Shown here: positions 3,869-22,874 of the stretch, piece by piece
Layout: the number at the start of each line of letters is the position of its first letter
Numbering within the stretch: position 1 is the first letter of the stretch
Notes under the pieces: model-generated
The model's database searches: none
Seen by the model: only the letters and a program-made list of their open reading frames with translations
What the model was told of the DNA's origin: nothing
Program-made: the position numbers and the translations under genes
Virus record (IMG/VR): IMGVR_UViG_3300031673_000512
Location: 1-22,874 of that record
From: a virus
Direction: 5' to 3' (one strand)
DNA length: 22,874 nt

Positions 3869-5278
3869 ATGGGAGCACCGACAAGCATAAGCGTCATCCT
3901 GGACCTCGATGAGTACTGCAAGTTCGAGCGGGACCGCAGAACTCTTCAGGTTCAGTGGACGGCTGTGGGCGGTGGGGACATGTCAGCGGAGCAGCTGACT
4001 GTCGAGCTGTTCAAAGCGCGTCGGTCGCGAGACACTGTTGTCCACTCCACTACGATCACAATTGGGTTGTCAACTGATCCAGCTTCTGGTTCGGTGTCGA
4101 TCAATCTCCTGGACGATGTGGTTGACTCCGACTATCTGAACCTGATCCGAAGGGGCCACTACTACATCAAAGTCACGTCTGTCACAGACACGAACGTGAG
4201 CGGAGTGTCGGCTGACTTTCCGATCTCTCTGGTGTCAGCGCAGCAGCTGCGGAACACGTACCTGTTTGGGTTGAATCTCCAGGCCAGTGATGTGAGAGCG
4301 ATGAAGTTCCAGCCCTCGCAGCTGACAGGCGTGGAGGTCATGGAGGTCAGCAGTTCCCACCAAACGGGGTTTGATAGGCTGACGTACATCTACAACGGTT
4401 CCCCGGCAGTGCTGAGACAGATTTCTTGGGGAGCGGGCCCTGTGGTGTCGTTGCTAGCGCCTGGACGCTATTTGTTGCGTCACGATTGCTCAGGGGGCGA
4501 CTACATCGTCATCCAGGTCAGGAACCTGTCCGCACTCCCTACAGACAACGTCACGGAGGACATGTTCGTCACCAAGGCTGAGATCACCGACGACATGCTC
4601 CGTAGGTGGATCGACCAGTCGTGTGATTGGCTCGAGAACGACAAGCTGGCTGGTGTCTTTCTGGAGCCTACTCGCGTGGTCACCGACCCCGTGCTGCCGG
4701 GCAATGTGATGCCGGACTGGGACTACATCGTCCCAGCAATCACGTTCTACACTAGGGCGCCAGCTAAGTGGATCGACATTCTGTTCCCCTACATGGGGCT
4801 TCTTCGAATTGATGAGTTGTTTGGGCAGATCGCTGAAACCAGGATCATCGATGTGGCCCTGGAGTGGTTGGAGATCTCCGAGAGGAACGGTTTCGTTCAG
4901 CTCGTACCATTCAACACGACGATCGCCTTCCAGTTCATCGGTCTCATGTGGGTGGAAGGGCTCCGAGGCACCATGGAGTTGCCCAACTTCTGGCACTTCA
5001 ATGCGATGGCTGGACTTCGTCAGGTGGATCCTGTCCTTCTGGAGGTTATCGCCAAAAAGGCAGCCGTGGATGCCCTCACGGTGGCTGGGCAGGCATTCCG
5101 AGGCGGGTTCGCCAGCCAGTCGCTGTCGAGGGACGGCGTGTCTGAGAGCGTGTCGTACACGGCTTCGGCCATCTACGGCATCTACTCAGCTACGATCGAG
5201 GACTACACAAAGTTCATCAACAGAGAGATCAAGCAGATCAAGGGCCGTTACCGCGGCGTAAATATGATCGTGATGTAG
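3869..5278 (+). CDS. Large neck-type virion protein (469 aa), N-terminal beta domain
   Basis: Residues 1-130 form a further beta-sandwich-like domain. The central part (about 225-385) is mixed alpha/beta with many aromatic residues. The C-terminal 80 residues contain AAVDALTVAGQAFRGGFASQ and then SLSRDGVSESVSYTASAIYG, followed by a helix ending KGRYRGVNMIVM; this 'LS-x-DG-x-S-x-S ... Y-x-G-x-x-M' ending is one I associate with neck or connector-region proteins in large phages, recalled rather than tested. The stop at 5278 is 3 nt before the next ATG. Position before the gp10-like and terminator genes supports a head-tail joining role. Confidence 0.72.
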   Translation: MGAPTSISVILDLDEYCKFERDRRTLQVQWTAVGGGDMSAEQLTVELFKARRSRDTVVHSTTITIGLSTDPASGSVSINLLDDVVDSDYLNLIRRGHYYIKVTSVTDTNVSGVSADFPISLVSAQQLRNTYLFGLNLQASDVRAMKFQPSQLTGVEVMEVSSSHQTGFDRLTYIYNGSPAVLRQISWGAGPVVSLLAPGRYLLRHDCSGGDYIVIQVRNLSALPTDNVTEDMFVTKAEITDDMLRRWIDQSCDWLENDKLAGVFLEPTRVVTDPVLPGNVMPDWDYIVPAITFYTRAPAKWIDILFPYMGLLRIDELFGQIAETRIIDVALEWLEISERNGFVQLVPFNTTIAFQFIGLMWVEGLRGTMELPNFWHFNAMAGLRQVDPVLLEVIAKKAAVDALTVAGQAFRGGFASQSLSRDGVSESVSYTASAIYGIYSATIEDYTKFINREIKQIKGRYRGVNMIVM

Positions 5279-6070: not shown

Positions 6071-6700
6071 GTGATCCAGATCAAGATAAAAATACACACC
6101 GAGGTGGACCTGGAAGACAAGGCGAAGCAGATCGGTGAGGCTGTTGAGAAGGGCATGCGCCAGCTGACGCAGCAGACATATGAAGAGTGGCAGAACGTCG
6201 CTGCGCGAAAGCTGAAAACGACACGTCGTAGGTATCAGGACTCTCTGAGCTTCAGCATGGACGGTCCCAACAACGGATCGATTACCCTCTCAGCCAAAGA
6301 CAAAGCCACCAATTGGTTGGTTACGGCCATCGAGAACGGTATCGAACCGTATTCGATCCGGGAATCAACCATGGCGAAGGCCAAGAAGCATTGGCCTCGA
6401 GACATGTCCGATAGGCAACGTCGAGCCATGTTCGCCTACCTGGCCAAGGTTGGGCGCCTCGGGAAGCCTCCGGTCCCGTTCACAGACATTCCGTTTCGGA
6501 CGGGTGGCGCCAAGGAGCAAGGGAAGCCCAATTCGTTTCGTCGCATCTCTCCGAACACGGCTCCTGACGCTTGGGGTCATCCTGGGTTCAAGCCAAAGGG
6601 CGGCGGCGGACCAGGCCCCTTACGAGAAGAAGTGATCGAGTACGTGAAGAAGACGGCACAGGATGTCTTCGGTCCTCTTCTGGCGAGGGTTTTGGTATGA
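6071..6700 (+). CDS. HK97-gp10-like neck/tail completion protein (209 aa)
   Basis: Start is GTG 6071, directly after the preceding TAA, supported by GGAGGG at 6058-6063. The N-terminal helix (residues 10-45) is followed by a beta region, and residues about 150-180 read FRRISPNTAPDAWGHPGFKP. The combination of an aromatic-Arg strand with 'W-x-H-P-G' is the signature of the HK97 gp10/minor tail completion group, which joins head and tail just ahead of the tail terminator gene, as here. A glycine stretch KGGGGPGP precedes the C-terminal helix EEVIEYVKKTAQDVF. ATGA overlap with the next gene. Family assignment by motif and position. Confidence 0.72.
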   Translation: MIQIKIKIHTEVDLEDKAKQIGEAVEKGMRQLTQQTYEEWQNVAARKLKTTRRRYQDSLSFSMDGPNNGSITLSAKDKATNWLVTAIENGIEPYSIRESTMAKAKKHWPRDMSDRQRRAMFAYLAKVGRLGKPPVPFTDIPFRTGGAKEQGKPNSFRRISPNTAPDAWGHPGFKPKGGGGPGPLREEVIEYVKKTAQDVFGPLLARVLV

Positions 6701-7755
6701 GCATCCTTCCCGAACTGGTAATCCAACGCGTGTTGGTATTGGGGATCAACAAGTTCCGGGAAGACGGAGACTTGGTTGCGATGCTTTTCCGCAACCTCAA
6801 TCAAGCCGATGTAGATGGGGTTCGACAGTTCATCAGGGACGAGACAGTAGACATCGCCCTCAGCTGGCCCGACTCGATTGTGAAGTTGCCATCGATCGTA
6901 ATATCTTTGAAGAACGAGAATGAGGATCAAGCCTTCTTGGGCGACCTGATGCAGTCCGCGACCAACATCCAACACACGGGGACTCCGTTCAGGAAAGAGA
7001 AGCTCGAGTCCCCTGCGACGATCCTAGGTAGTGGGTCTGAAGGAAAGTCGGGAGAGCCAACGATCCCGTTGGACACTCCCTACCAAGTCACTCGGTCCAA
7101 GTCGACCTCCGTATTCTTTTCCTTGGAGCCCCCATTCAATATCGAAGATCCGTTCGAGTTCGATTCTGACGAAGAGCTGCTTGTAGTGATCCGAGAGGGA
7201 ACGGGGGCTGGTCAACGCAGGGTCGTGTCTGCGATCACCCCTCGAGCTGTCAGCAACGAGGTCGAGGTCGAAGTCTCATCCAATTGGGGAACGCTGCCGG
7301 ACTCGACGTCTGTCATGCAGTTCTTCTTGGAGTCCAACCGAGGGACTGTGGGTGAGCCGACGAAGTTGTTTGAGCCAGATCAACACATCGAGCGGTTGGG
7401 ATCCCTGTACCGCACGAGCTACCAAATCCTCATCTCAGGACCTAACCAAGAGATCACGCTCTTCCTCTACGCCATGGTCAAGGCGATTTTCGTGATAAAT
7501 CGCGAGTTCTTACAGCGACACGGTTTCATTGAGCCCAAGCTGGGTGGCACCGATTTCGTAGCTAAACCCGAGTACTTACCAGAACTTGCTTATCATCGTG
7601 CTCTGATCTTAGAATTCAAGAATTCGTTCGACGTGTATCTGTCCCCCGAGGTGATCACAGGGATCAATCTGAGTTTGGGGGTTTATGATCCTAATGTAGG
7701 TGATGGTTCTGGTGTGGGCCGAGTTGTTTCGGAAACTACTCTGGATCTTTCGTAA
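6697..7755 (+). CDS. Putative tail terminator/completion protein with inserted beta domain (352 aa)
   Basis: ATG 6697 overlaps the preceding stop; an in-frame ATG further upstream at 6571 lies inside the gp10-like gene and is rejected. N-terminal residues 1-80 (helix, then PDSIVKLPSIVISLKNENED) and C-terminal residues 225-330 (SYQILISGPNQEITLFLYAM and a long helix) resemble the two halves of a tail terminator/tail-completion fold. Between them, about residues 155-212, sits a beta module with GTGAGQRRVVSAITPRAV and WGTLPDSTSVMQF that is the same module found in the sheath and in the gene at 10675. The size, roughly twice a simple terminator, is explained by this insert. Position just before the sheath supports the role. 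Confidence 0.65.
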   Translation: MSILPELVIQRVLVLGINKFREDGDLVAMLFRNLNQADVDGVRQFIRDETVDIALSWPDSIVKLPSIVISLKNENEDQAFLGDLMQSATNIQHTGTPFRKEKLESPATILGSGSEGKSGEPTIPLDTPYQVTRSKSTSVFFSLEPPFNIEDPFEFDSDEELLVVIREGTGAGQRRVVSAITPRAVSNEVEVEVSSNWGTLPDSTSVMQFFLESNRGTVGEPTKLFEPDQHIERLGSLYRTSYQILISGPNQEITLFLYAMVKAIFVINREFLQRHGFIEPKLGGTDFVAKPEYLPELAYHRALILEFKNSFDVYLSPEVITGINLSLGVYDPNVGDGSGVGRVVSETTLDLS

Positions 7756-7765
7756 GGAGGCCGTC

Positions 7766-8020
7766 ATGGCGAAGCAAAAAGATAGTGCCGAGGCGACACC
7801 GACCAAGACGGTCGCGGAAACCAAACCCCAGGCTGTCGTCGCCCCGGAGAAGCCAACCAAGAAACAAGATCCAAAACCTGCTCCTCTGGCTGTCCCCTTC
7901 GCACGGTGGTTCAGTGCGCGGAGCTTCAAACCGCATTGGCGAGGCGGTATGGAGGCCTTCGCGGACACCACCGGGAAGAAGACGATGGAAGAGTGGAATC
8001 GGATCTTCAAAAACTACTAG
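7766..8020 (+). CDS. Small Lys/Pro/Ala-rich protein preceding the sheath (84 aa)
   Basis: The start at ATG 7766 is set by an excellent AGGAGG at 7755-7760; an in-frame upstream ATG at 7700 lies inside the preceding gene. The first 45 residues are low-complexity (Lys, Pro, Ala, Thr, Glu) and probably disordered. The C-terminal 38 residues are dense and aromatic (FARWFSARSFKPHWRGGMEA then GKKTMEEWNRIFKNY), looking like a short folded domain. A basic tail plus a compact tryptophan-rich end fits a small assembly or capping partner of the sheath. No family recognised. Confidence 0.72.
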   Translation: MAKQKDSAEATPTKTVAETKPQAVVAPEKPTKKQDPKPAPLAVPFARWFSARSFKPHWRGGMEAFADTTGKKTMEEWNRIFKNY

Positions 8021-8034
8021 GGTAGGAGCGAACC

Positions 8035-10620
8035 ATGTCGAGGTCAGTCACCTTCAATGGCATCACCCAGTTCCGGGCTGGTGGTATCACCCGGATCAAC
8101 GCAAACGCTCTTGCCCAGATCGGTCTTGCCTCGTTTGGCATCATCGGCTTGGTGGGAGAGGCGGATGGAGGAACCGCCGCACCCGGGGAGATCATCACGA
8201 TCGACGATCCGGCCCTGGCAGGAGACTACTTCAAGAGTGGTGCGTTGGCTGATGCCATCGCGCCAGCGTTTGATCCGTCCGTGGATCCCAGAATTCCGGG
8301 AGGCGCATTCCGGGTTTTGGGGATCAGGACCAATGCGGCACTCCAGGCTGCTCTGACGCTGTACGGTCGCCAGCAGACCGGGACAGTGGACGCTGGAGCG
8401 ACCACCACGGTCATCCCGATTGTGGGCGCTGCATTCACCGTGGATGCGTTGGCGTTGAACGTCCTTCGGATCGGTTCCGAGGACCGAGTTATCGCCAGCA
8501 ACACGGCCACGGACATCACGGTCTCTACGGCTTTCTCCGCCATTCCAGCGGCGACAACCGCGATCGAGATTCTGGCCCCCATGATCACCGTCACCAGCAA
8601 GCCATACGGCATCGAGGGGAACCAGACCACCTTCGAGTGGGAGCCTGGCATCACCCAGGGTGGAGCGTGGACCAACGCCAAGGGGGACAGGTCTCAGGCC
8701 AGCGAAGACGTCGGCGACAAGTCCCACCTGCAGGTAGAGTACGTGGGCCAGGCTTCGTCAATCGTGCAGGCCTCTGGTGTCGCTACGGGCGGCGCGGCCT
8801 CGCAGCTGGACGATTCGCTCGCAACGTGGGGCGTCAACGCCTTCACCTCCTACTTCGTGACCGTCACCCTTGCAGGTGTGGTCAACCTCCGCAAGATCGC
8901 CAGCAACACGGCCACTCAGCTGACGGTCACGTCAGCCTTTACGACTTCCCCAACGACCGAGGCCTATCAGGTCCTTTCGGGCATGGTCCGAACGGGAACT
9001 GCGGCGGCGGGGGCAGCTTCCACGATCACCTTGGAGGCGGCCCTCAACGTGGCGGCCAACGAGCTAGACGGTCTGGTTGTCGCCATCGTCAGCGGTACAG
9101 GGGTGGGTCAGCGCAGAACGATCGCTTCACACACGGTGGGGGTGTCATCGGTTCTGACGGTGAGCAACGCCTGGACCACGACGCCGGACGCTACTTCGGT
9201 GTACGAGATTCGATACGCCACAGCGGCGACGGGTTCGTTCATCGGTGCGGCAGGCGTGGCGACGTATTTCCGTACGTCGGTGGCGGTGGACGGTGGGGTG
9301 GCAGCTCAAGATCTGAACATCCAGCTGGCATCCACAGACACGCTGGAAGATCTCGCTGCGACCATCAACGCGAACGCGAACTACGTCGCGACCATCCCTG
9401 GTGGTGTCAACCGGCAGACCACGATGGCGTCGAGCTTCGACTTCGACCTTGGAAACACGGATGTCGATCTTCTCGACGATCGGAACACGGTGACGGCACA
9501 GCCGAATCCGACCTACAGCTACACGGTTCCGTGGCCGAACAACTTCAAGCGGAACATCGCGCAGCTGGTTGCCGATCTGAATGACAAGAGCCAGTATGTG
9601 ACGGCCGTGCGGGCAACTTCCGGCGGTACAGGGACAGGTGGTGGCCGTCCGGAGTGGACGGGGACGGGGACCATCGGTACGATCGGTGACTCGATCAAGT
9701 ACCTCACTGGTGGTGCCCGAGGCATCAGCGACAACACTGCGTTCCAGAGCGCTTTGGACAAGTTGCTCCAGATTCGCCACAACTTCGCGATCCCTCTCAT
9801 CGTGCAGGACCTGGCGAACGAGGGATTCGGATCAACGGCGACCTGGGCTTCGGTGGCGGCGCAGCTGTCGGCGCACGTCGACACTGCCAATGGCATCGCC
9901 AAGAACGAGTGCGGTGGCCTCATTGGTTTCAAGGGGACCAAGACTCAGCTGATCGCTGAGGGCAACAAGCTCAACAACGCCGACATCCAGATCACGAGCC
10001 AGCAGCTGCAGGTGCTCAACGTCAGTGGCAGCCTGGCGCTCATGGACGAGTGGTCTCTGGCAGTCGTCGCCGCGGGTATGCGTTCCGGTGCCCCGGAGGT
10101 CGCGGAGCCGATCACCCACAAGTTCATCAAGACGTTCGATCTGCAGCAGGACAACTCCTGGGATCCTCGAGATCGAACCGACGCCAACCAATTGATCGCC
10201 AACGGCATCCTCTTCGCCGAGTTCGTGCAGGGGAAGGGGTACCGGTTCGTTCGCGATCTCACCACCTATGTCCAGGACGACAACCTGGCCTACAGCGAGG
10301 GATCGGTTCGCGATGCGGTTCGATACATCGCCTATGGTCTGAGGACCACGCTCGAGGACAAGTTCACGGGCGTGAAGGGAACCCCCGCCAATGCATCGTC
10401 GATCAAGGACACGGTTGTGGCCTACCTCGATGCTGCCAACGCGGAGAACATCATCGTGACGAGTCTCAACGAGGATGGCCAGGTTGTGCCAGGCTACGAG
10501 AGGCTCCGGGTCACGGTTTCCGGCGATATCGCCACCATCAAGGTCCAGATCTACCCAGCTGTGGGGATCAACTTCCAGCTGAACGACATCTATCTCCAGC
10601 TGCCGAGACAGGCTGCGTAA
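8035..10620 (+). CDS. Contractile tail sheath protein
   Basis: 861 aa, preceded by GGTAGGAGC. The N-terminus has the sheath-type opening FRAGGITRINANALAQIG and GIIGLVGEADGG. The conserved C-terminal core is clear: LALMDEWSLAVVAAGMRSGA, KGYRFVRDLTTYVQDD, VRDAVRYIAYGLRTTLEDKF, and a final strand region IATIKVQIYPAVGINFQLND. It polymerises around the tube and contracts to drive the tube into the cell. It is larger than typical sheaths (about 350-700 aa) because residues about 115-395 hold three successive beta modules of one family (see the repeat entries), probably displayed on the outside. The stop is followed by a degenerate second copy of the last nine codons. High confidence in identity. 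Confidence 0.93.
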   Translation: MSRSVTFNGITQFRAGGITRINANALAQIGLASFGIIGLVGEADGGTAAPGEIITIDDPALAGDYFKSGALADAIAPAFDPSVDPRIPGGAFRVLGIRTNAALQAALTLYGRQQTGTVDAGATTTVIPIVGAAFTVDALALNVLRIGSEDRVIASNTATDITVSTAFSAIPAATTAIEILAPMITVTSKPYGIEGNQTTFEWEPGITQGGAWTNAKGDRSQASEDVGDKSHLQVEYVGQASSIVQASGVATGGAASQLDDSLATWGVNAFTSYFVTVTLAGVVNLRKIASNTATQLTVTSAFTTSPTTEAYQVLSGMVRTGTAAAGAASTITLEAALNVAANELDGLVVAIVSGTGVGQRRTIASHTVGVSSVLTVSNAWTTTPDATSVYEIRYATAATGSFIGAAGVATYFRTSVAVDGGVAAQDLNIQLASTDTLEDLAATINANANYVATIPGGVNRQTTMASSFDFDLGNTDVDLLDDRNTVTAQPNPTYSYTVPWPNNFKRNIAQLVADLNDKSQYVTAVRATSGGTGTGGGRPEWTGTGTIGTIGDSIKYLTGGARGISDNTAFQSALDKLLQIRHNFAIPLIVQDLANEGFGSTATWASVAAQLSAHVDTANGIAKNECGGLIGFKGTKTQLIAEGNKLNNADIQITSQQLQVLNVSGSLALMDEWSLAVVAAGMRSGAPEVAEPITHKFIKTFDLQQDNSWDPRDRTDANQLIANGILFAEFVQGKGYRFVRDLTTYVQDDNLAYSEGSVRDAVRYIAYGLRTTLEDKFTGVKGTPANASSIKDTVVAYLDAANAENIIVTSLNEDGQVVPGYERLRVTVSGDIATIKVQIYPAVGINFQLNDIYLQLPRQAA
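8377..8580 (+). repeat. Beta module, sheath copy A
   Basis: Sheath residues about 115-182. The module runs from TGTVDAGATTTVIPIVG through DRVIASNTATDITVSTAFSA to AIEIL. It shares with copy B the exact 20-nt stretch at 8491-8510. Pattern: Gly/Thr-rich strand, then '[RK]-x-I-A-S-N/H-T', then a strand ending in 'aromatic-x-T-x-P-x-[AT]-T'. Confidence 0.6.
8761..8982 (+). repeat. Beta module, sheath copy B
   Basis: Sheath residues about 243-316. Contains RKIASNTATQLTVTSAFTTS followed by PTTEAYQVLSG. Bases 8896-8915 are identical to 8491-8510 in copy A, 405 nt (135 codons) upstream in the same frame, which suggests duplication inside the gene. Confidence 0.6.
8983..9219 (+). repeat. Beta module, sheath copy C
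   Basis: Sheath residues about 317-395. Contains GTGVGQRRTIASHTVGVSSV and AWTTTPDATSVYEI. This copy is closer to the module in the putative tail terminator (GTGAGQRR ... WGTLPDSTSV at about 7171-7332) than to sheath copies A and B. Confidence 0.65.
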
Positions 10621-10661
10621 AGGCCAAAACCACTTTGCAGCTGCCTCGGCAGACTGCGTGA
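10591..10661 (+). repeat. Degenerate second copy of the sheath C-terminal codons
   Basis: The sheath ends at 10591-10620 with codons for LQLPRQAA and TAA. After 11 nt, bases 10632-10661 again read LQLPRQTA and TGA in another frame. The two 30-nt segments match at 21 positions, and within the nine shared codons every difference is synonymous except Ala to Thr. The upstream flanks do not match. This looks like a remnant of a diverged sheath gene end left by recombination or partial duplication. Confidence 0.75.
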
Positions 10662-10674
10662 CAGGAGAGTAAAC

Positions 10675-11376
10675 ATGGCGATCTCAATTCCGGCCCTGCT
10701 CGACACTCAGCTCACCGCTCTGAAGGCGACGTTGCTGCCAAAGCAGGATGCTGCGACTAACATCGCGTCGTCCCCCGTTCCGCCCTACGTCTTGGGGAAC
10801 CGGGCGGCAGACTTGCTGCAGCTGCTGACGGACCTCATCGACGTTGCCGCACTCACGGCCACGGGTGGCACGGCGACGTCAGTGGTAGACACGGCAGCCT
10901 TCACGGGCGTCAACTCACTGATCGGATGCAAGGTGACCTTCGTGGGCAACATCACGGCCGCTCTCGCGGGCGTTTCGGCCTACGTGGTCTCCAACACCGT
11001 CGATGCCCTGTTCTTCGCCCCTGGGGCGCTCCCAGGGACGCCTGCGGCGGGTGACACCTACGCGGTGGAGTTCACGGCTGTGGACGCCGATCTGGCGGCT
11101 CTGGCAGGCGATAAGGGTCTCGGCGACTCGGATTCCAACCCCTACGGCCCTGGCCCCAGCTTCGTCAACGCGGTGGTCAAGGTCATGCAGGCGGTGGGAG
11201 CCACGATGCCGGGCTACCTGGACACCCAGGACAAGATCACAGCCATCGCAGAGGCTTTCCATGTGGGCAGCCCGCATGCGGGAGCGGGCTCTCAGGGGCA
11301 CGGTGGGGCGGCTCTGATCGCCGATATGTTGCAGCAGGCTCGGGACGCGGTTGCGGGGTACACCGTTCCGGCGTAA
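10675..11376 (+). CDS. Unknown protein between sheath and tube, with one beta module (233 aa)
   Basis: ATG 10675 is preceded by AGGAGA. N-terminal residues 1-57 are helical. Residues about 58-133 (nt 10846-11073) form another member of the sheath/terminator beta module, with ATGGTATSVVDTAAFTG, the strand YVVSNTVDALFF and PAAGDTYAVEF. The C-terminal 100 residues are helical, with a Gly/His segment GSPHAGAGSQGHGG before the last helix. No membrane segment. In most myophages the tube gene follows the sheath directly; here this gene and a structured spacer intervene. Function unknown; a tail-associated structural protein displaying the same module as the sheath is a fair guess. Confidence 0.75.
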   Translation: MAISIPALLDTQLTALKATLLPKQDAATNIASSPVPPYVLGNRAADLLQLLTDLIDVAALTATGGTATSVVDTAAFTGVNSLIGCKVTFVGNITAALAGVSAYVVSNTVDALFFAPGALPGTPAAGDTYAVEFTAVDADLAALAGDKGLGDSDSNPYGPGPSFVNAVVKVMQAVGATMPGYLDTQDKITAIAEAFHVGSPHAGAGSQGHGGAALIADMLQQARDAVAGYTVPA

Positions 11377-11620: not shown

Positions 11621-12070
11621 ATGGCCGAAGCCACCCCAAACTTTGCTGGAGTACCTCAGGTGTTCTCCGGCGCGAGAGCCCGTTTCAAGGTGTCCGGTGT
11701 GACCGTCGGCTACGCGGCCGGGGTCAGCGGAGAGGAGACGATTGATTACGAGCCGATCGAAGTGCTCGACCTGCTCGAGGTTCGTGAGCATGTGCCGGTA
11801 GCATACAGATGCTCACTTAACGCGCAAATCTTCCGAATCATCGGCGACTCCCTCAAGAAGCAGGGGATTTTCCCCAAGCCCGAGGACATCATCACCAGCA
11901 ACGCTCTCGACGCTGCGATCGAGGATGCTGGCGTCACCCGCAACACGGCCGCCCTCTTCACAGGAGTGAGGACCGCGGGACACACCTGGGATGTTGCCGC
12001 TCGAGGGATCGTCTCCGAGAACGTCAACTTCGTGGCGATCAAGGTCACAGACGAGTACGAACGTCCATAG
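11621..12070 (+). CDS. Tail tube protein
   Basis: 149 aa, the usual size for a myophage tube subunit. The N-terminal part has the tube pattern VFSGARARFKVSGVTVGYAA followed by EETIDYEPIEVLDLLEVREH, then a beta hairpin VPVAYRCSLNAQIFRIIGDS. The remainder alternates strands and one helix (SNALDAAIED), ending in a conserved-looking strand VNFVAIKVTDEYE. Stacked hexamers would form the inner tube inside the sheath. Gene order, after the sheath and before the tail assembly chaperone and tape measure, supports this. It has its own structured leader, unlike its neighbours. Confidence 0.85.
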   Translation: MAEATPNFAGVPQVFSGARARFKVSGVTVGYAAGVSGEETIDYEPIEVLDLLEVREHVPVAYRCSLNAQIFRIIGDSLKKQGIFPKPEDIITSNALDAAIEDAGVTRNTAALFTGVRTAGHTWDVAARGIVSENVNFVAIKVTDEYERP

Positions 12071-12102: not shown

Positions 12103-12693
12103 ATGAATCCGCATGATCCGAATGGGAACCAGTTCAGGCAACCACCATCCGGAAACCCTGCGCCTCCCGTTCCTCGAGAAATGACGCAGCCGCAGCATCC
12201 TCAGCAAGCGGGGATGACGGCGGTGCCGATCAACACGATGCACACCTGGAATTTCCACTTCAAGTCTGAGATCGACGGCAGGACGTACGAAGGTCAGTTC
12301 ACCTGCAAGAAGTTGTCGATCATGGAGATCTCCAGACTCGGTGTTCGGAAGGTGCAGCTGAACGGTGGGTTTCACTACAACGAAGATAGGCCTGGGTACG
12401 GGGTCGAGCCTCACATTGACAACATGAACTCCATGCTAGCGCACCTCGAGCTGGCAGTCATCCAAGCTCCCGTGTGGTTCAACCCCGAGGTGATCTACGA
12501 TCCGAGTCTCCTCCGGGCTATTTATGGGGAGGTCGCGAAGTTCGAAAACAGCTTTTTTCGGTCCCAGCGGTCAGTGCCTGAGCCTGGACAAGGCAGCCCG
12601 GATGATCGCAGCGGAGAGAGTCAAGAATCCGGGTCTGCTGGACGTGTTGCGGAAGTGGGCGGAAGCCAAGTACAGCCTTCCCTGGACCCATGA
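12103..12693 (+). CDS. Tail assembly chaperone, short (unshifted) form, gpG-like
   Basis: ATG 12103 follows TAGGAGA. Residues 1-45 are Pro/Gln/Asn-rich and probably flexible; residues about 46-150 form the folded part (HTWNFHFKSEIDGRTYEGQF, MEISRLGVRKVQLNGGFHYN, then helices). From about residue 153 on, the frame gives a polar, Gly/Ser/Pro-rich tail of 44 residues that looks non-native because the overlapping +1 frame carries good protein. The short form and the frameshifted form together are the standard G/GT arrangement found just upstream of tape measure genes in long-tailed phages, where they bind and chaperone the tape measure protein. Confidence 0.8.
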   Translation: MNPHDPNGNQFRQPPSGNPAPPVPREMTQPQHPQQAGMTAVPINTMHTWNFHFKSEIDGRTYEGQFTCKKLSIMEISRLGVRKVQLNGGFHYNEDRPGYGVEPHIDNMNSMLAHLELAVIQAPVWFNPEVIYDPSLLRAIYGEVAKFENSFFRSQRSVPEPGQGSPDDRSGESQESGSAGRVAEVGGSQVQPSLDP

Positions 12694-13030
12694 GTCGCTT
12701 CAGCAGCTCACGTTGTTGGAGCTGCTGGTCATGTTTTGGGAGGACTACTACCGGAAGAATCCGGTTGAGACCAGACGGGCAGCAGATGGTCGCGTCATCT
12801 ATTCGAACACGGGAGATGCGCTGATCGACAAGTGGGAGCAGGAACTGGCGATGGGGTTGGAACCAGATCTGTTGGAGGGTGTTGCTCCTGAAGAACGTAA
12901 GAAAGAGGCTGAAGCTTCGAAACGTCTGCAGCGACAGCAATCCGCGGTGGGGGCTGAGGGGGTAGGGGACGGATTTGCTGAAGAGTATGATCTTGAGCGG
13001 ACAGGGATTCCGTTTATCGGGAGAGGTTGA
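12524..13030 (+). CDS. Tail assembly chaperone frameshift extension, gpT-like
   Basis: This frame has helical, well-composed protein (LSLDKAARMIAAERVKNPG, LLDVLRKWAEAKYSLPW, LLELLVMFWEDYYRKNP) from about 12560 to TGA 13028-13030. The only early in-frame ATG (12524) has no ribosome binding site, and its first dozen residues are shadow sequence. I therefore read it as expressed by frameshifting from the preceding gene at the T6C run 12553-12559, which gives a fusion of about 308 aa. The stop overlaps the tape measure ATG (TGATG). The shift is +1 or, equivalently in frame, -2, not the commoner -1. Confidence 0.78.
   Translation: MGRSRSSKTAFFGPSGQCLSLDKAARMIAAERVKNPGLLDVLRKWAEAKYSLPWTHESLQQLTLLELLVMFWEDYYRKNPVETRRAADGRVIYSNTGDALIDKWEQELAMGLEPDLLEGVAPEERKKEAEASKRLQRQQSAVGAEGVGDGFAEEYDLERTGIPFIGRG
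12553..12559 (+). promoter_or_regulatory. Programmed frameshift site (T6C)
   Basis: Zero-frame codons are AGC TTT TTT CGG. Phe-tRNA on the second TTT (12556-12558) can move one base forward onto TTC, giving a better pair for a GAA anticodon, and continue with GGT in the gpT-like frame. A -2 slip on the same run reaches the same frame with one more Phe. No strong downstream hairpin or pseudoknot was evident by eye. Confidence 0.65.
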
Positions 13031-17661: not shown

Positions 17662-19082
17662 TGACCCAATTCTCACCAGACGGAACTGTCGTTCCTTCCG
17701 CACAACTGACCGCTGAGGAGTGGGAAAAAGCCAAGAAGACTCCCATCTTCTATGGCGTCATTCTGACGGTTAAGCCCTCAGACAATCAGTCGAATTACAC
17801 AGCCCAGAACAGCGCAGCTTTTCGAGGGTACCGACACGAATGTACGGTTTTGGCTTCTGACTACGTGGGAAAAGATCCTGATATATTGATCCCCAATGTA
17901 ATTATCCCCCCAGGTCGACATTCTGGGATTGACAACTTCGAAGAAGATCTACCTCGAGGTTGCAGTTCCATGATCGACGAGAGCAAATTCAGAGACGATT
18001 TAGTCGGAATTGACTACTCAAAGTTGGACGGGGAGTGGTGCATGGTGGCGTTCATCGGCGGGCGCCTAGAGAATCCGTTCATCATTGGTTGGTGGCCGCA
18101 TCCGTCGAACATATTTGATCTAGCCACTAGCGGAGAGGGGGACAAGGGGAAGTCTCTAACGCAGTTTGATCCGAAAAAGAACAAGTCTAGGTTCATTCGC
18201 CGCATCAATGGCACTACCGTAGTGGTCAACAAAGAAGGCAGTGTCTACCTGGACACGAGTGAGTCCAACTCCTCAGTCAAGATCAAGGATGGAAAGCACA
18301 CACGCACGCTGGTTGATAAGGGCGGCCATCTCCAGATCGATCTTAGCAAGACGGCGCAGTTCGAGCTGAATTGGAACGAGAAGGAACACAAGAACCCACG
18401 TCTTGGGGCTGGTAGTACGAGTTCCTCTCCTATTACGGATGCCGATCTCCCTCACCCCGATCAACCGGTATCTGGAAAGCCGAAAGAGCGTGAGACGTCC
18501 AGGACGTTCATTCGTGGCAAAGAGTACGAACTCCTGGTCAAGACGTCGAACTTCAACATTTGGTGTGCAACAGAGGGGGACGAAAAAGGGGAGCTGCTCG
18601 TTTTGGTCGATGACAGCGCCACACTTAGCCAACGTACTGGGGATGATCCCACAGCTTTCGTTCAGGTGAAGGGTGGCGGAGTTACGTTGCAGGCGAAAGA
18701 CGGGTCGATCGTCACGATCAAAGACGATCAGATTGCTCTGGCGTCGAAGTCCGGCGCCCAGGTGTCACTCATTGGGGGTCAGGTCTCGATTACCGCTCCT
18801 GGTGGTATTTCGGCGTCAGCTCCGATGACGGTGGGCCCCCTAGCAGTGGACGGGGTCATGCTGGGAACGTCTTATGTGGCCTCACAGAAGACGCTGTTTG
18901 CAACATGGGACGCCTTCCTAAATGGGCTGACAGCGTATGTTGGAGCTATCAAGACGATCGCTGATCCAACTGGTGCTGCTACGGGGCTTTTGACTCCCCT
19001 GATCGGGGCTCTGGTCACAGCCAAGGCAGCACACGAGGCTCTGCAAGTGAAGTACGTCAGCCAGCAGATGAAATCACAATGA
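17661..19082 (+). CDS. Baseplate spike protein, OB-fold plus beta-helix (gpV/gp5/gp45-like)
   Basis: 473 aa. Residues about 28-148 form an OB-type domain ending in LDGEWCMVAFIGGRLENPFI followed by IGWWPHP, the usual seam to the helix part. Residues about 175-385 are short repeating strands rich in Asp, Gly, Thr and Ser (KEGSVYLDTSESNSSVKIKD, KDGSIVTIKDDQIALASKSG, VSITAPGGISASAPMTVG), as expected for a trimeric intertwined beta-helix that punctures the outer membrane. The last 80 residues are helical and alanine-rich. The start overlaps the hub stop and the stop overlaps the next ATG by ATGA. No lysozyme domain is present. Confidence 0.8.
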   Translation: MTQFSPDGTVVPSAQLTAEEWEKAKKTPIFYGVILTVKPSDNQSNYTAQNSAAFRGYRHECTVLASDYVGKDPDILIPNVIIPPGRHSGIDNFEEDLPRGCSSMIDESKFRDDLVGIDYSKLDGEWCMVAFIGGRLENPFIIGWWPHPSNIFDLATSGEGDKGKSLTQFDPKKNKSRFIRRINGTTVVVNKEGSVYLDTSESNSSVKIKDGKHTRTLVDKGGHLQIDLSKTAQFELNWNEKEHKNPRLGAGSTSSSPITDADLPHPDQPVSGKPKERETSRTFIRGKEYELLVKTSNFNIWCATEGDEKGELLVLVDDSATLSQRTGDDPTAFVQVKGGGVTLQAKDGSIVTIKDDQIALASKSGAQVSLIGGQVSITAPGGISASAPMTVGPLAVDGVMLGTSYVASQKTLFATWDAFLNGLTAYVGAIKTIADPTGAATGLLTPLIGALVTAKAAHEALQVKYVSQQMKSQ

Positions 19083-19468
19083 GCTGTCTGCCCCCACTTC
19101 CTACGCTGAATATTCCGGGAATATCGATCCCGCCTAGTATACCTACGCTCAGTTTGCCTACGATCCCAATCCCTGAGCTGCCAAACCTGAACTTGGAGCT
19201 TCCAGCTCTCACTCTTCCGCCATTGCCATCATTGAGTATCCCTGGGATTTCGATCCCCCCAAGTTTGCCGACGTTGGCGCTACCAACGATCCCTATTCCG
19301 TCGCTGCCAACACTGAATCTGGAGCTTCCGTCCTTGACGCTGCCACCGATTCCGACGTTGAGCATCCCCGGGATTTCGATCCCACCAAGTCTGCCTACGT
19401 TGGCGCTGCCGACTCTGCCGTCTCTTGATTTGATCTGCCCGACAGAGGCAGTGCAGGAGAAGTTGTAA
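19079..19468 (+). CDS. Pro/Leu/Ile repeat protein between spike and baseplate genes (129 aa)
   Basis: Pro, Leu and Ile make up about 62% of the residues. Three tandem 42-residue units each begin IPGISIPP (residues 12, 54 and 96); the third is cut to about 21 residues. The segment PTLALPTIPIPSLPTLNLEL gives the rhythm, with proline every 2-4 residues. There are no aromatic residues and almost no charge, and the only Cys residues (3 and 120) bracket the repeats. Both ends overlap their neighbours (ATGA and TAATG), so it is a coupled member of the baseplate operon rather than a spurious frame. A hydrophobic, polyproline-like rod or trimeric fibre associated with the spike tip is a guess; no family recognised. 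Confidence 0.78.
   Translation: MSCLPPLPTLNIPGISIPPSIPTLSLPTIPIPELPNLNLELPALTLPPLPSLSIPGISIPPSLPTLALPTIPIPSLPTLNLELPSLTLPPIPTLSIPGISIPPSLPTLALPTLPSLDLICPTEAVQEKL
19112..19429 (+). repeat. 126-bp tandem coding repeat, about 2.5 copies
   Basis: Units begin at 19112, 19238 and 19364, each with an ATC/ATT-rich start encoding IPGISIPP. Copies 2 and 3 are closest: both carry GGGATTTCGATCCC and CTACGTTGGCGCT or close variants. Most differences fall in third codon positions, so the protein repeat has been kept by selection. Confidence 0.8.
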
Positions 19469-21359: not shown

Positions 21360-22874
21360 ATGGCGTTCCAACCGCGGAACTTCGAGCAGATTTTGACGGA
21401 CATGATCGCCCATGTCCGCGCCAACACGACTCTCACAGACTTCACTGTTGGATCGGTCATCCGTACGATTCTCGAGTCGGCAGCCCTCGAAGATGATGAG
21501 CAGTACTTTCAGATGGTCCAGCTTCTGGATGCGTTTCGGATTCAGACAGCCAGGGATTCGGACCTAGACGAGCGGGCCGCTGACTACAATTTGGTGCGTC
21601 TCCCTCCCAAGTCGTCCTTCACCAAGTCGATCGTAATTCAGAATGGGAGTTTGATCACAGACACGTTGGTCTTTGACCTCGTGTCCGGCAGCCCTAAGAC
21701 GGCGAAGCTGAACGACACTTCCGACTTCCCTACAGCCCCGTTCACGATCCGAATGGGTGAGGGTACCCCTCAGGTCGAAGACTGTTCAGTCACCATCAAC
21801 AACACCGTCACCAACGAGTTGACAGTGGCTTCCCTGGTCAACGACCACTCCGTAGGAGAACGCGTTTCTGTAACGGGCGGCGGGGACAAGACGATCAGTT
21901 CCGGGCAGCAGATTCAAGTCCCTCCTCAAGGCAACAACAGTCCCATCTTGTTTACGACTACTGACCCAGCCACCATTGTCGATGGAAACTACGAGTCCGG
22001 GAGTATCGGCGGTAGCGCGAACGTCGCTGGCCGCATCGGAAACGTAGCTGCCGGGCGCATATCACAGTTTCAGGGTTCCCCTCCGTTCGCAGGAGCCCTT
22101 GTTACAAACAAGACGTCCACCAGTGGTGGTCGTGATCTGGAAACTGATTCTGACCTGCGGGCCCGTTTGACGCGGAGACTGGCAGAGCTGGTTCGCGGGA
22201 CGGTTCAGGCACTCGAGTCAGGGGTGATTGGTGTCGAAGACCCTCAGACGGGTCAAAGCGTTGCGACTGCGAAACTCAGAGAAGACTTTGACGATCCCTA
22301 CAACCACGTTCTCTACGTGGACGATGGGACGGGGTTCCTTCCGTCATTCGTCAACATGGCTCAGTCCACACTAAACGGGGTTCATGGGATCGGGGTGGTC
22401 GTTCTGAATGTGAACGACTCAACCGAGTTCCCCGATTCTGGAGACATCCTTCTTGAGCCCGAGGGTGCGGAACCTGAGTACGTGACCTACTCCTCCAAGG
22501 GAGCAGGGATTCTGAATCTGGACGCTGCTACGCTTTACGCGCACGCCAGCGGTGCTGAAGTGTTGCTAGTCGATCACCTTGGGGCTGCTGAAGAGGGACA
22601 GAACTACTTCCAGCTATCCGACTTTCCATTGCTCAAGAACACGTTGGAATTGTACGACGACGACACGGGGTTCTTCACCAAACGCACTGAAGAATCGGAT
22701 TTCGTCGTCAACAGAACCAATGGCGAGATCGAGTACCTTAGGGCGGGCCTGGCAGGGGGCTCTGTTCCGTTGGCACGCTATGGTTACTACACAGGTTTGA
22801 TCCAAGAAGTTCAGAAGGTGGTAACCGGCGATCCAAACGACCGCATCAGCTACCCGGGGATCGTCGCAGGCGGC
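21360..22874 (+). CDS. Baseplate wedge protein J-like (gp6/gpJ/XkdT family), partial at window end
   Basis: ATG 21360 follows GAGGAG at 21348-21353. The frame is open for 505 codons to the end of the window. The N-terminus has the J signature: FTVGSVIRTILESAALEDDE (residues 28-47) and ARDSDLDERAADYNLVRLPP (64-83). Further on, VTNKTSTSGGRDLETDSDLR is the conserved GG-x-D-x-E-x-D segment. Residues about 355-405 contain a small inserted beta module (EPEYVTYSSKG ... LYAHASGAEVLLVD), common in tail proteins. The end repeats a strand pattern (ESDFVVNRTNGEIEYL) like the gene at 110. It forms the baseplate ring that links hub and fibres. Confidence 0.85.
   Translation, partial: MAFQPRNFEQILTDMIAHVRANTTLTDFTVGSVIRTILESAALEDDEQYFQMVQLLDAFRIQTARDSDLDERAADYNLVRLPPKSSFTKSIVIQNGSLITDTLVFDLVSGSPKTAKLNDTSDFPTAPFTIRMGEGTPQVEDCSVTINNTVTNELTVASLVNDHSVGERVSVTGGGDKTISSGQQIQVPPQGNNSPILFTTTDPATIVDGNYESGSIGGSANVAGRIGNVAAGRISQFQGSPPFAGALVTNKTSTSGGRDLETDSDLRARLTRRLAELVRGTVQALESGVIGVEDPQTGQSVATAKLREDFDDPYNHVLYVDDGTGFLPSFVNMAQSTLNGVHGIGVVVLNVNDSTEFPDSGDILLEPEGAEPEYVTYSSKGAGILNLDAATLYAHASGAEVLLVDHLGAAEEGQNYFQLSDFPLLKNTLELYDDDTGFFTKRTEESDFVVNRTNGEIEYLRAGLAGGSVPLARYGYYTGLIQEVQKVVTGDPNDRISYPGIVAGG

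Follow-up and report, generated by a model that had tools for sequence, protein, structure and literature searches.

A predicted all-beta module inserted repeatedly in the terminator, sheath and post-sheath tail genes of an uncultivated contractile-tailed phage

In this study, a contractile-tail gene cluster was analysed in a virus record of 22,874 bases (IMG/VR record IMGVR_UViG_3300031673_000512, positions 1 to 22,874; this whole stretch is referred to as the window), in which one domain of about 68–81 residues appears at five places in three neighbouring tail genes, all on the plus strand. The tail terminator gene (6697..7755) contains module T (7090..7332). The tail sheath gene (8035..10620) contains module A (8377..8580) at insertion site 1 and modules B (8770..8982) and C (8989..9219) as the first and second copies at insertion site 2. 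A gene between sheath and tube (10675..11376) contains module P (10864..11079). The terminator passed the cut-off of the SP10_terminator family (PF23932; 36.4 bits against 27, E 4.9e-9) and had no match among PDB sequences. The sheath core was recognized by phrog_279 (E 7.9e-36) and by a model nearest to the phage 812 sheath (Z 33.6), with a PF04984 score under the cut-off (23.9 bits against 31.4). The 10675–11376 gene gave no family match of note in Pfam/PHROGs-type scans, and 11621–12070 is the presumed tube gene, as judged from phrog_985 and its position. Terminator, small gene, sheath and tube come in the same order in Exiguobacterium phage EalM-132 (Herelleviridae), where sheath and tube have no gene between them.

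The limits of the five modules were set by a hidden Markov model (HMM) of the family. Among the 162 open reading frames (ORFs) of the window, this HMM matched these five places with independent E-values (iE) of 6.9e-11 or better (A, 5.4e-19; B, 5.8e-14; C, 7.7e-22; P, 2.2e-16); no module was found elsewhere in the window, the next best iE being 0.44. Searches for Rfam families and tandem repeats found none. The original prediction, made from the letters of the sequence, had placed one motif in the terminator and in sheath copy C, and this motif occurs letter for letter in both, as GTGAGQRRVVSAITPRAVSNEVEVEVSSNWGTLPDSTSV in the terminator and as GTGVGQRRTIASHTVGVSSVLTVSNAWTTTPDATSV in C. Its more diverged relatives, proposed for sheath copies A and B and for the 10675 gene, were recovered by the family HMM and by the profile–profile tests described below. 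The coordinates first given nearly match the HMM limits for C (8983–9219) and P (10846–11073); for T, 7171–7332 covers only the last two thirds of the module.

Profile–profile comparison was performed with hhalign in two ways. The first test used alignments of orthologues only (9–10 orthologues per segment) and is free of recruitment bias. It gave 97.9% for C–T, 97.1% for A–B, 95.4% for B–C and 85.7% for A–C; P compared with the sheath copies gave 51.6% (B–P), 26.6% (C–P) and 21.2% (A–P), and T was weak against the others (B–T, 3.7%; A–T, 2.7%; T–P, 0.1%). Among 81 pairs with control segments, one reached 26.4% over 15 columns and the remaining 80 were at most 2.6%; A–P and C–P thus did not clearly exceed the worst control. 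In the second test the classes were widened to all relatives (28 rows for sheath site 1, 24 for T and 9 for P), which had been recruited with a mixed family HMM that favours family-like members, making this a sensitive rather than an unbiased test. The values were then 98.9% for C–T, 94.9% for B–T, 93.9% for A–P, 92.1% for A–T, 56.5% for B–P, 56.2% for C–P and 0.2% for T–P. Column shuffling of eight pairs (A–P, B–P, C–T, A–T, T–P and three with the hub domain considered below; 40 shuffles each) reached a maximum of 4.0%.

Two further lines of evidence were obtained. BLASTP among ORFs from the window and 16 loci matched sheath to terminator with E 4.7e-5 in one direction and 7.1e-5 in the reverse, and the family HMM run against 3,711 ORFs gave best values of 0.51 when these were shuffled and 0.066 when they were reversed. 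Chance or low-complexity similarity was ruled out by the shuffled and reversed proteins together with the column shuffles. These comparisons show that the sheath copies share an ancestor with T and also with P, and by the same profiles T and P are linked solely via the sheath copies, the direct match between them having failed in both tests. As had been proposed, the five segments almost certainly form one module family.

Structure models were used to assess the fold. The predicted local distance difference test (pLDDT) score was approximately 90 over the module in the P model, and block means in the sheath model were 81–95 through A, B and C. Strands assigned by DSSP were at residues 126–130, 143–146, 149–156, 160–163 and 176–191 in A; 257–259, 274–279, 282–291, 295–298 and 310–322 in B; 330–332, 348–353, 360–366, 373–376 and 389–393 in C; and 69–71, 86–89, 101–107, 111–114 and 128–132 in P. 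The modelled strand order is alike in these four segments, which the models cover, and for them the beta module of the original prediction is borne out as a small, predicted all-beta domain, probably a barrel. The top VIA-align match of the P model was the hub protein of the gene transfer agent RcGTA (6tba_7A; Z 8.7, root-mean-square deviation (rmsd) 4.7, 91 residues, chain 145–258), followed at Z 7.0 by the Chi and JBD30 tail proteins and then Uba1. Foldseek with the P model gave no PDB match with an E-value of 0.001 or better, and one viral protein in BFVD (5.2e-4). When the module profile was compared with PDB sequences, two chains appeared: an asparaginase (E 0.29), taken as a chance match, and again 6tba_7A, at 187–247 (E 0.59), a weak match that is not significant alone. 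A profile of seven hub proteins gave 78.6% with C and 74.9% with modules of other phages, against a shuffled maximum of 1.7%.

Relatives were collected by an IMG/VR scan that yielded 51 sheath loci (designated by L numbers). For the sheath tree, which has a midpoint root only, the other sheath loci were cleared by hand of near-duplicates and fragments; 33 sheaths were aligned, 31 passed the length filter and one duplicate was collapsed, leaving 30. One to four detected modules were borne by 27 of these sheaths, which form one clade, and the other three (L046, L047 and L049) were module-free and lie on a long branch. In the module-free sheaths the A site is a short turn, and B and C are absent as one block. 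The terminator module was present in 25 of the 30 phages and absent from the three with module-free sheaths (stop-to-stop ORFs of 255–265 residues), and two could not be judged; short terminators without module T were seen in L045, L047 and L048. Since these relatives lack the module at the same sheath and terminator sites, it is an insertion relative to the module-free orthologues. The three distant relatives also lacked a gene between sheath and tube. A module-bearing orthologue or analogue followed the sheath in 21 of the 30 phages, none was shown in eight, and the contig ended there in one (L012). Copy number varied, with 1–4 matches in the sheath and 1–2 in the post-sheath gene, and P orthologues of other clades hold a second, A-like module, for whose detection the sheath A profile sufficed (iE 1e-12 in L027 and 3e-10 in L025).

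Other inserts were observed in the same genes. Three sheaths (L010, L011 and L023) have a third insertion site, after approximately residue 496 of the window sheath, with an extra beta-rich-looking domain of approximately 80 residues that the module HMM did not match. Directly before module P, 6 of 17 aligned orthologues of the post-sheath gene have a stretch of approximately 130 residues with repeated YN-x-H-like helical motifs (7432–8538 in L003, and also in L008, L011, L017, L018 and L021); it is missing from 10675–11376 of the window and is a second interchangeable part in this gene.

The module was also found in further tail genes. The window gene at 3869–5278 has a nearly empty insertion site (4385..4417; approximately ten residues), where the orthologues in L041 and L042 carry an A-like module; that of L041 shares 44% identity with sheath A across 64 residues (E 5e-9). 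Four other compared relatives have other inserts at this site. The orthologues with this site are L024 214–1959, L051 2618–4447, L026 2891–4720, L025 2398–4236 and L041 4557–6233. Elsewhere, the module was detected in phiM19 gp92 (phrog_438, baseplate wedge), in a DUF4815 protein and a PF23786 wedge protein of L013, in a Prophage_tail protein and a laminin-G-bearing protein of L014, and in a phrog_11439 tail-fibre-type protein of Microcystis phage Mae-JY22. tblastn against 50,697 phage records gave 9 records for C and 2 for T. Exchange between genes and phages, suggested beforehand from the window, is supported, though not in its direction or timing, by the module-free orthologues together with copies in a fourth tail gene and, in unrelated phages, in tail proteins of wedge, fibre and other types. 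Recent exchange within this genome was not borne out: C and T are only approximately 38% identical, and of ten C copies, eight had their best cross-class partner in proteins of other phages, one in T and one in P. For sheath C of the window, the best cross-class match is one L013 DUF4815 copy, with 55% identity over 78 residues. The classes were compared by best match and not by a module tree, for which approximately 75 columns are too few. An origin of C by duplication of the neighbouring A or B is disfavoured by the eight matches in other phages. In Pfam and PHROGs, 32 members of the module gave isolated matches only, with no family matching more than one member; judged by these searches, the module is without a family of its own. 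Searches of an open-access library listed no paper recognised as a description of one module common to sheath and terminator.

As to function, adhesion is ranked first among the explanations and a structural clamp second. The module of approximately 65–80 residues, inserted in variable loops of tail proteins, is present once per terminator subunit, three times per sheath subunit and once per post-sheath protein; by analogy to known sheaths, the sheath copies would project outwards, away from the tube, and the copies together could make the tail surface highly multivalent, contacting envelope or capsule glycans with low affinity, a role of the kind already proposed for the RcGTA hub domain, to which P is most similar. 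Glycan binding or decoration is compatible with the modelled fold match. According to PMC7296036, residues 168–249 of the RcGTA hub are called oligosaccharide-binding by likeness to the insertion domain of the LKA1 tailspike gp49, for which sugar binding is described there as shown; PMC9230969 places extra sheath domains away from the tube and proposes adhesion or stabilisation. Reasoning from these likenesses, we tentatively put forward weak multivalent adhesion of an inserted barrel module to envelope glycans, without claiming even chances for it. Several points weigh against it. The oligosaccharide label of the hub was itself given by fold (PMC7296036); P matches its best fold hit with a high rmsd (4.7), and Uba1, an unrelated barrel, stands at Z 7.0; the hub profile was weak for A (1.3%), B (1.0%), T (3.6%) and P (14.0%); and the neck position of T is an odd place for adhesion. 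In addition, mean identity was 0.48 for A, 0.41 for B and 0.49 for C, compared with 0.48–0.50 in the linking regions and 0.62–0.68 in the core, so that the modules diverge no faster than other outer parts of the sheath and no sign of an arms race or diversifying selection was seen. A wider version, that of a plug-in barrel of tailed phages moving among sheath, terminator, wedge, fibre, hub-like and other tail proteins, with matched sheath and terminator copies forming a continuous host-facing outer layer that makes the tail shaft a multivalent adhesin, is unlikely.

The main rival to adhesion is a clamp or lattice, in which the modules would pack on neighbouring subunits and stabilise the outer sheath, with T mimicking a sheath subunit and bracing or capping the last sheath ring. 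It holds this place because the terminator of phage 812 clamps the sheath with an outer beta-sandwich (PMC12886913), and for the terminator copy it is a serious alternative. The EalM-132 terminator also has extra residues in the T region; yet HMMs detected no module in two Herelleviridae loci, and the 812 domain, a beta-sandwich, is at most a putative homologue of the module. Sheath and terminator modules are gained or lacking together (25 phages with both, three with neither, two unjudged), as a clamp would have it, but the three module-free phages are one long branch, and both absences may go back to one event. Stabilisation is one of the roles proposed for extra sheath domains in PMC9230969; wedge, fibre and other tail proteins bear the same module, however, and cannot make the same contact. 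Overall, the clamp is a real possibility that falls somewhat behind adhesion.

It is also conceivable that the loops simply tolerate domains, and that a compact, easily accepted module spreads with little or no defined job. The varying copy number would fit such a neutral or weakly useful insertion, as would the 3869–5278 site, which holds nothing, the module or other inserts in different phages. Nevertheless, all 27 bearers keep at least one sheath copy and all 25 of their terminators that could be judged keep theirs despite deep divergence, and it is costly to produce a large protein in hundreds of copies; this explanation is accordingly considered improbable. Finally, the segments might share no module at all, T/C and A/B/P being two or more unrelated Gly/Thr-rich beta stretches alike by composition. 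The failed T–P comparison and, in the first test, the A–P and C–P values within the range of the worst control agree with this, but column shuffles, which preserve composition, reached only the maximum given above, the sheath A profile alone detected the second modules in P orthologues, and strand order agrees among the four modelled segments (A, B, C and P). Already disfavoured by these results, the absence of a common module is scarcely credible.

Several other features of the cluster were observed. ORFs 12103–12693 and 12524–13030 overlap and are read in different frames. The first has weak matches to tail assembly chaperones (phrog_25000 and phrog_1038), and the overlap is a candidate programmed frameshift. 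A programmed frameshift is usual for tail assembly chaperone genes. Flanked by a spike-like gene and the 19468 gene, 19079–19468 encodes a 129-residue protein of Pro/Ile/Leu-rich repeats (SIPPSLPTLALPTIPIPSLPTLNLELP...) that gave no family match. A Baseplate_J protein (PF04865, E 4.3e-10) is encoded at 21360–22874 and is cut by the window end; its beta-rich stretches received no support from the module HMM (iE 1.2). The ORF at 1227–1766 matched phrog_1128 (enoyl-CoA hydratase/carnithine racemase-like, moron class; E 3e-9) and nothing in Pfam.

Extra sheath domains are already known. In the present case, an uncultivated contractile-tailed phage has one domain inserted repeatedly in three neighbouring tail genes, and relatives carry it in further tail genes, showing how phages re-equip the tail exterior with an interchangeable part. 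Within a single tail, one module can be traced over several genes, for which natural pairs with and without it exist, and there is a link to a hub domain that has already been named oligosaccharide-binding; the pairs and this link make possible a direct test of whether the tail shaft is adhesive or only braced. The module profile can also be used to annotate unnamed tail proteins.

Compared with known systems, the module is closest to the Phage_BR0599/lambda gpL-like hubs. Both have a G-rich turn followed by the R/E-x-I/V order, and both are inserted in a tail protein. The window modules gave no match to PF09356 (Phage_BR0599), a family that was also not found in the window record; the module consensus scored 14.9 bits, and only L014 came near the cut-off of 22.9 bits, with 20.9 and 21.3 bits, the latter being the best score. 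The flanking iron-sulphur cysteines (GCDK and others), present in 7 of 7 hub sequences, occur in none of the five window modules, and the module stands in several copies in sheath, terminator and post-sheath proteins. The family is close to the BR0599 hub domain but, by Pfam score and cysteine motif, falls outside it. Among the fold matches of P is also the LKA1 gp49 insertion domain (PDB 4ru4; Z 6.8, rmsd 5.6, 97 aligned), a weak likeness in a Z range common for unrelated barrels. Phage 812 gp99, the terminator of a related myophage, has an outer beta domain (PMC12886913), and Herelleviridae terminators align with that of the window in the flanks; it differs in that the two Herelleviridae loci have no detected module. 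Ig-like and other extra sheath domains, as presented in PMC9230969, are likewise beta domains in the variable middle of the sheath and thought to lie outside. No Ig domain was among the listed fold matches of P, which are barrels, although the module may still have an Ig fold. Compared with the Ig-like domains described there, the module is compact, has its own sequence signature and is common to the terminator and other tail genes.
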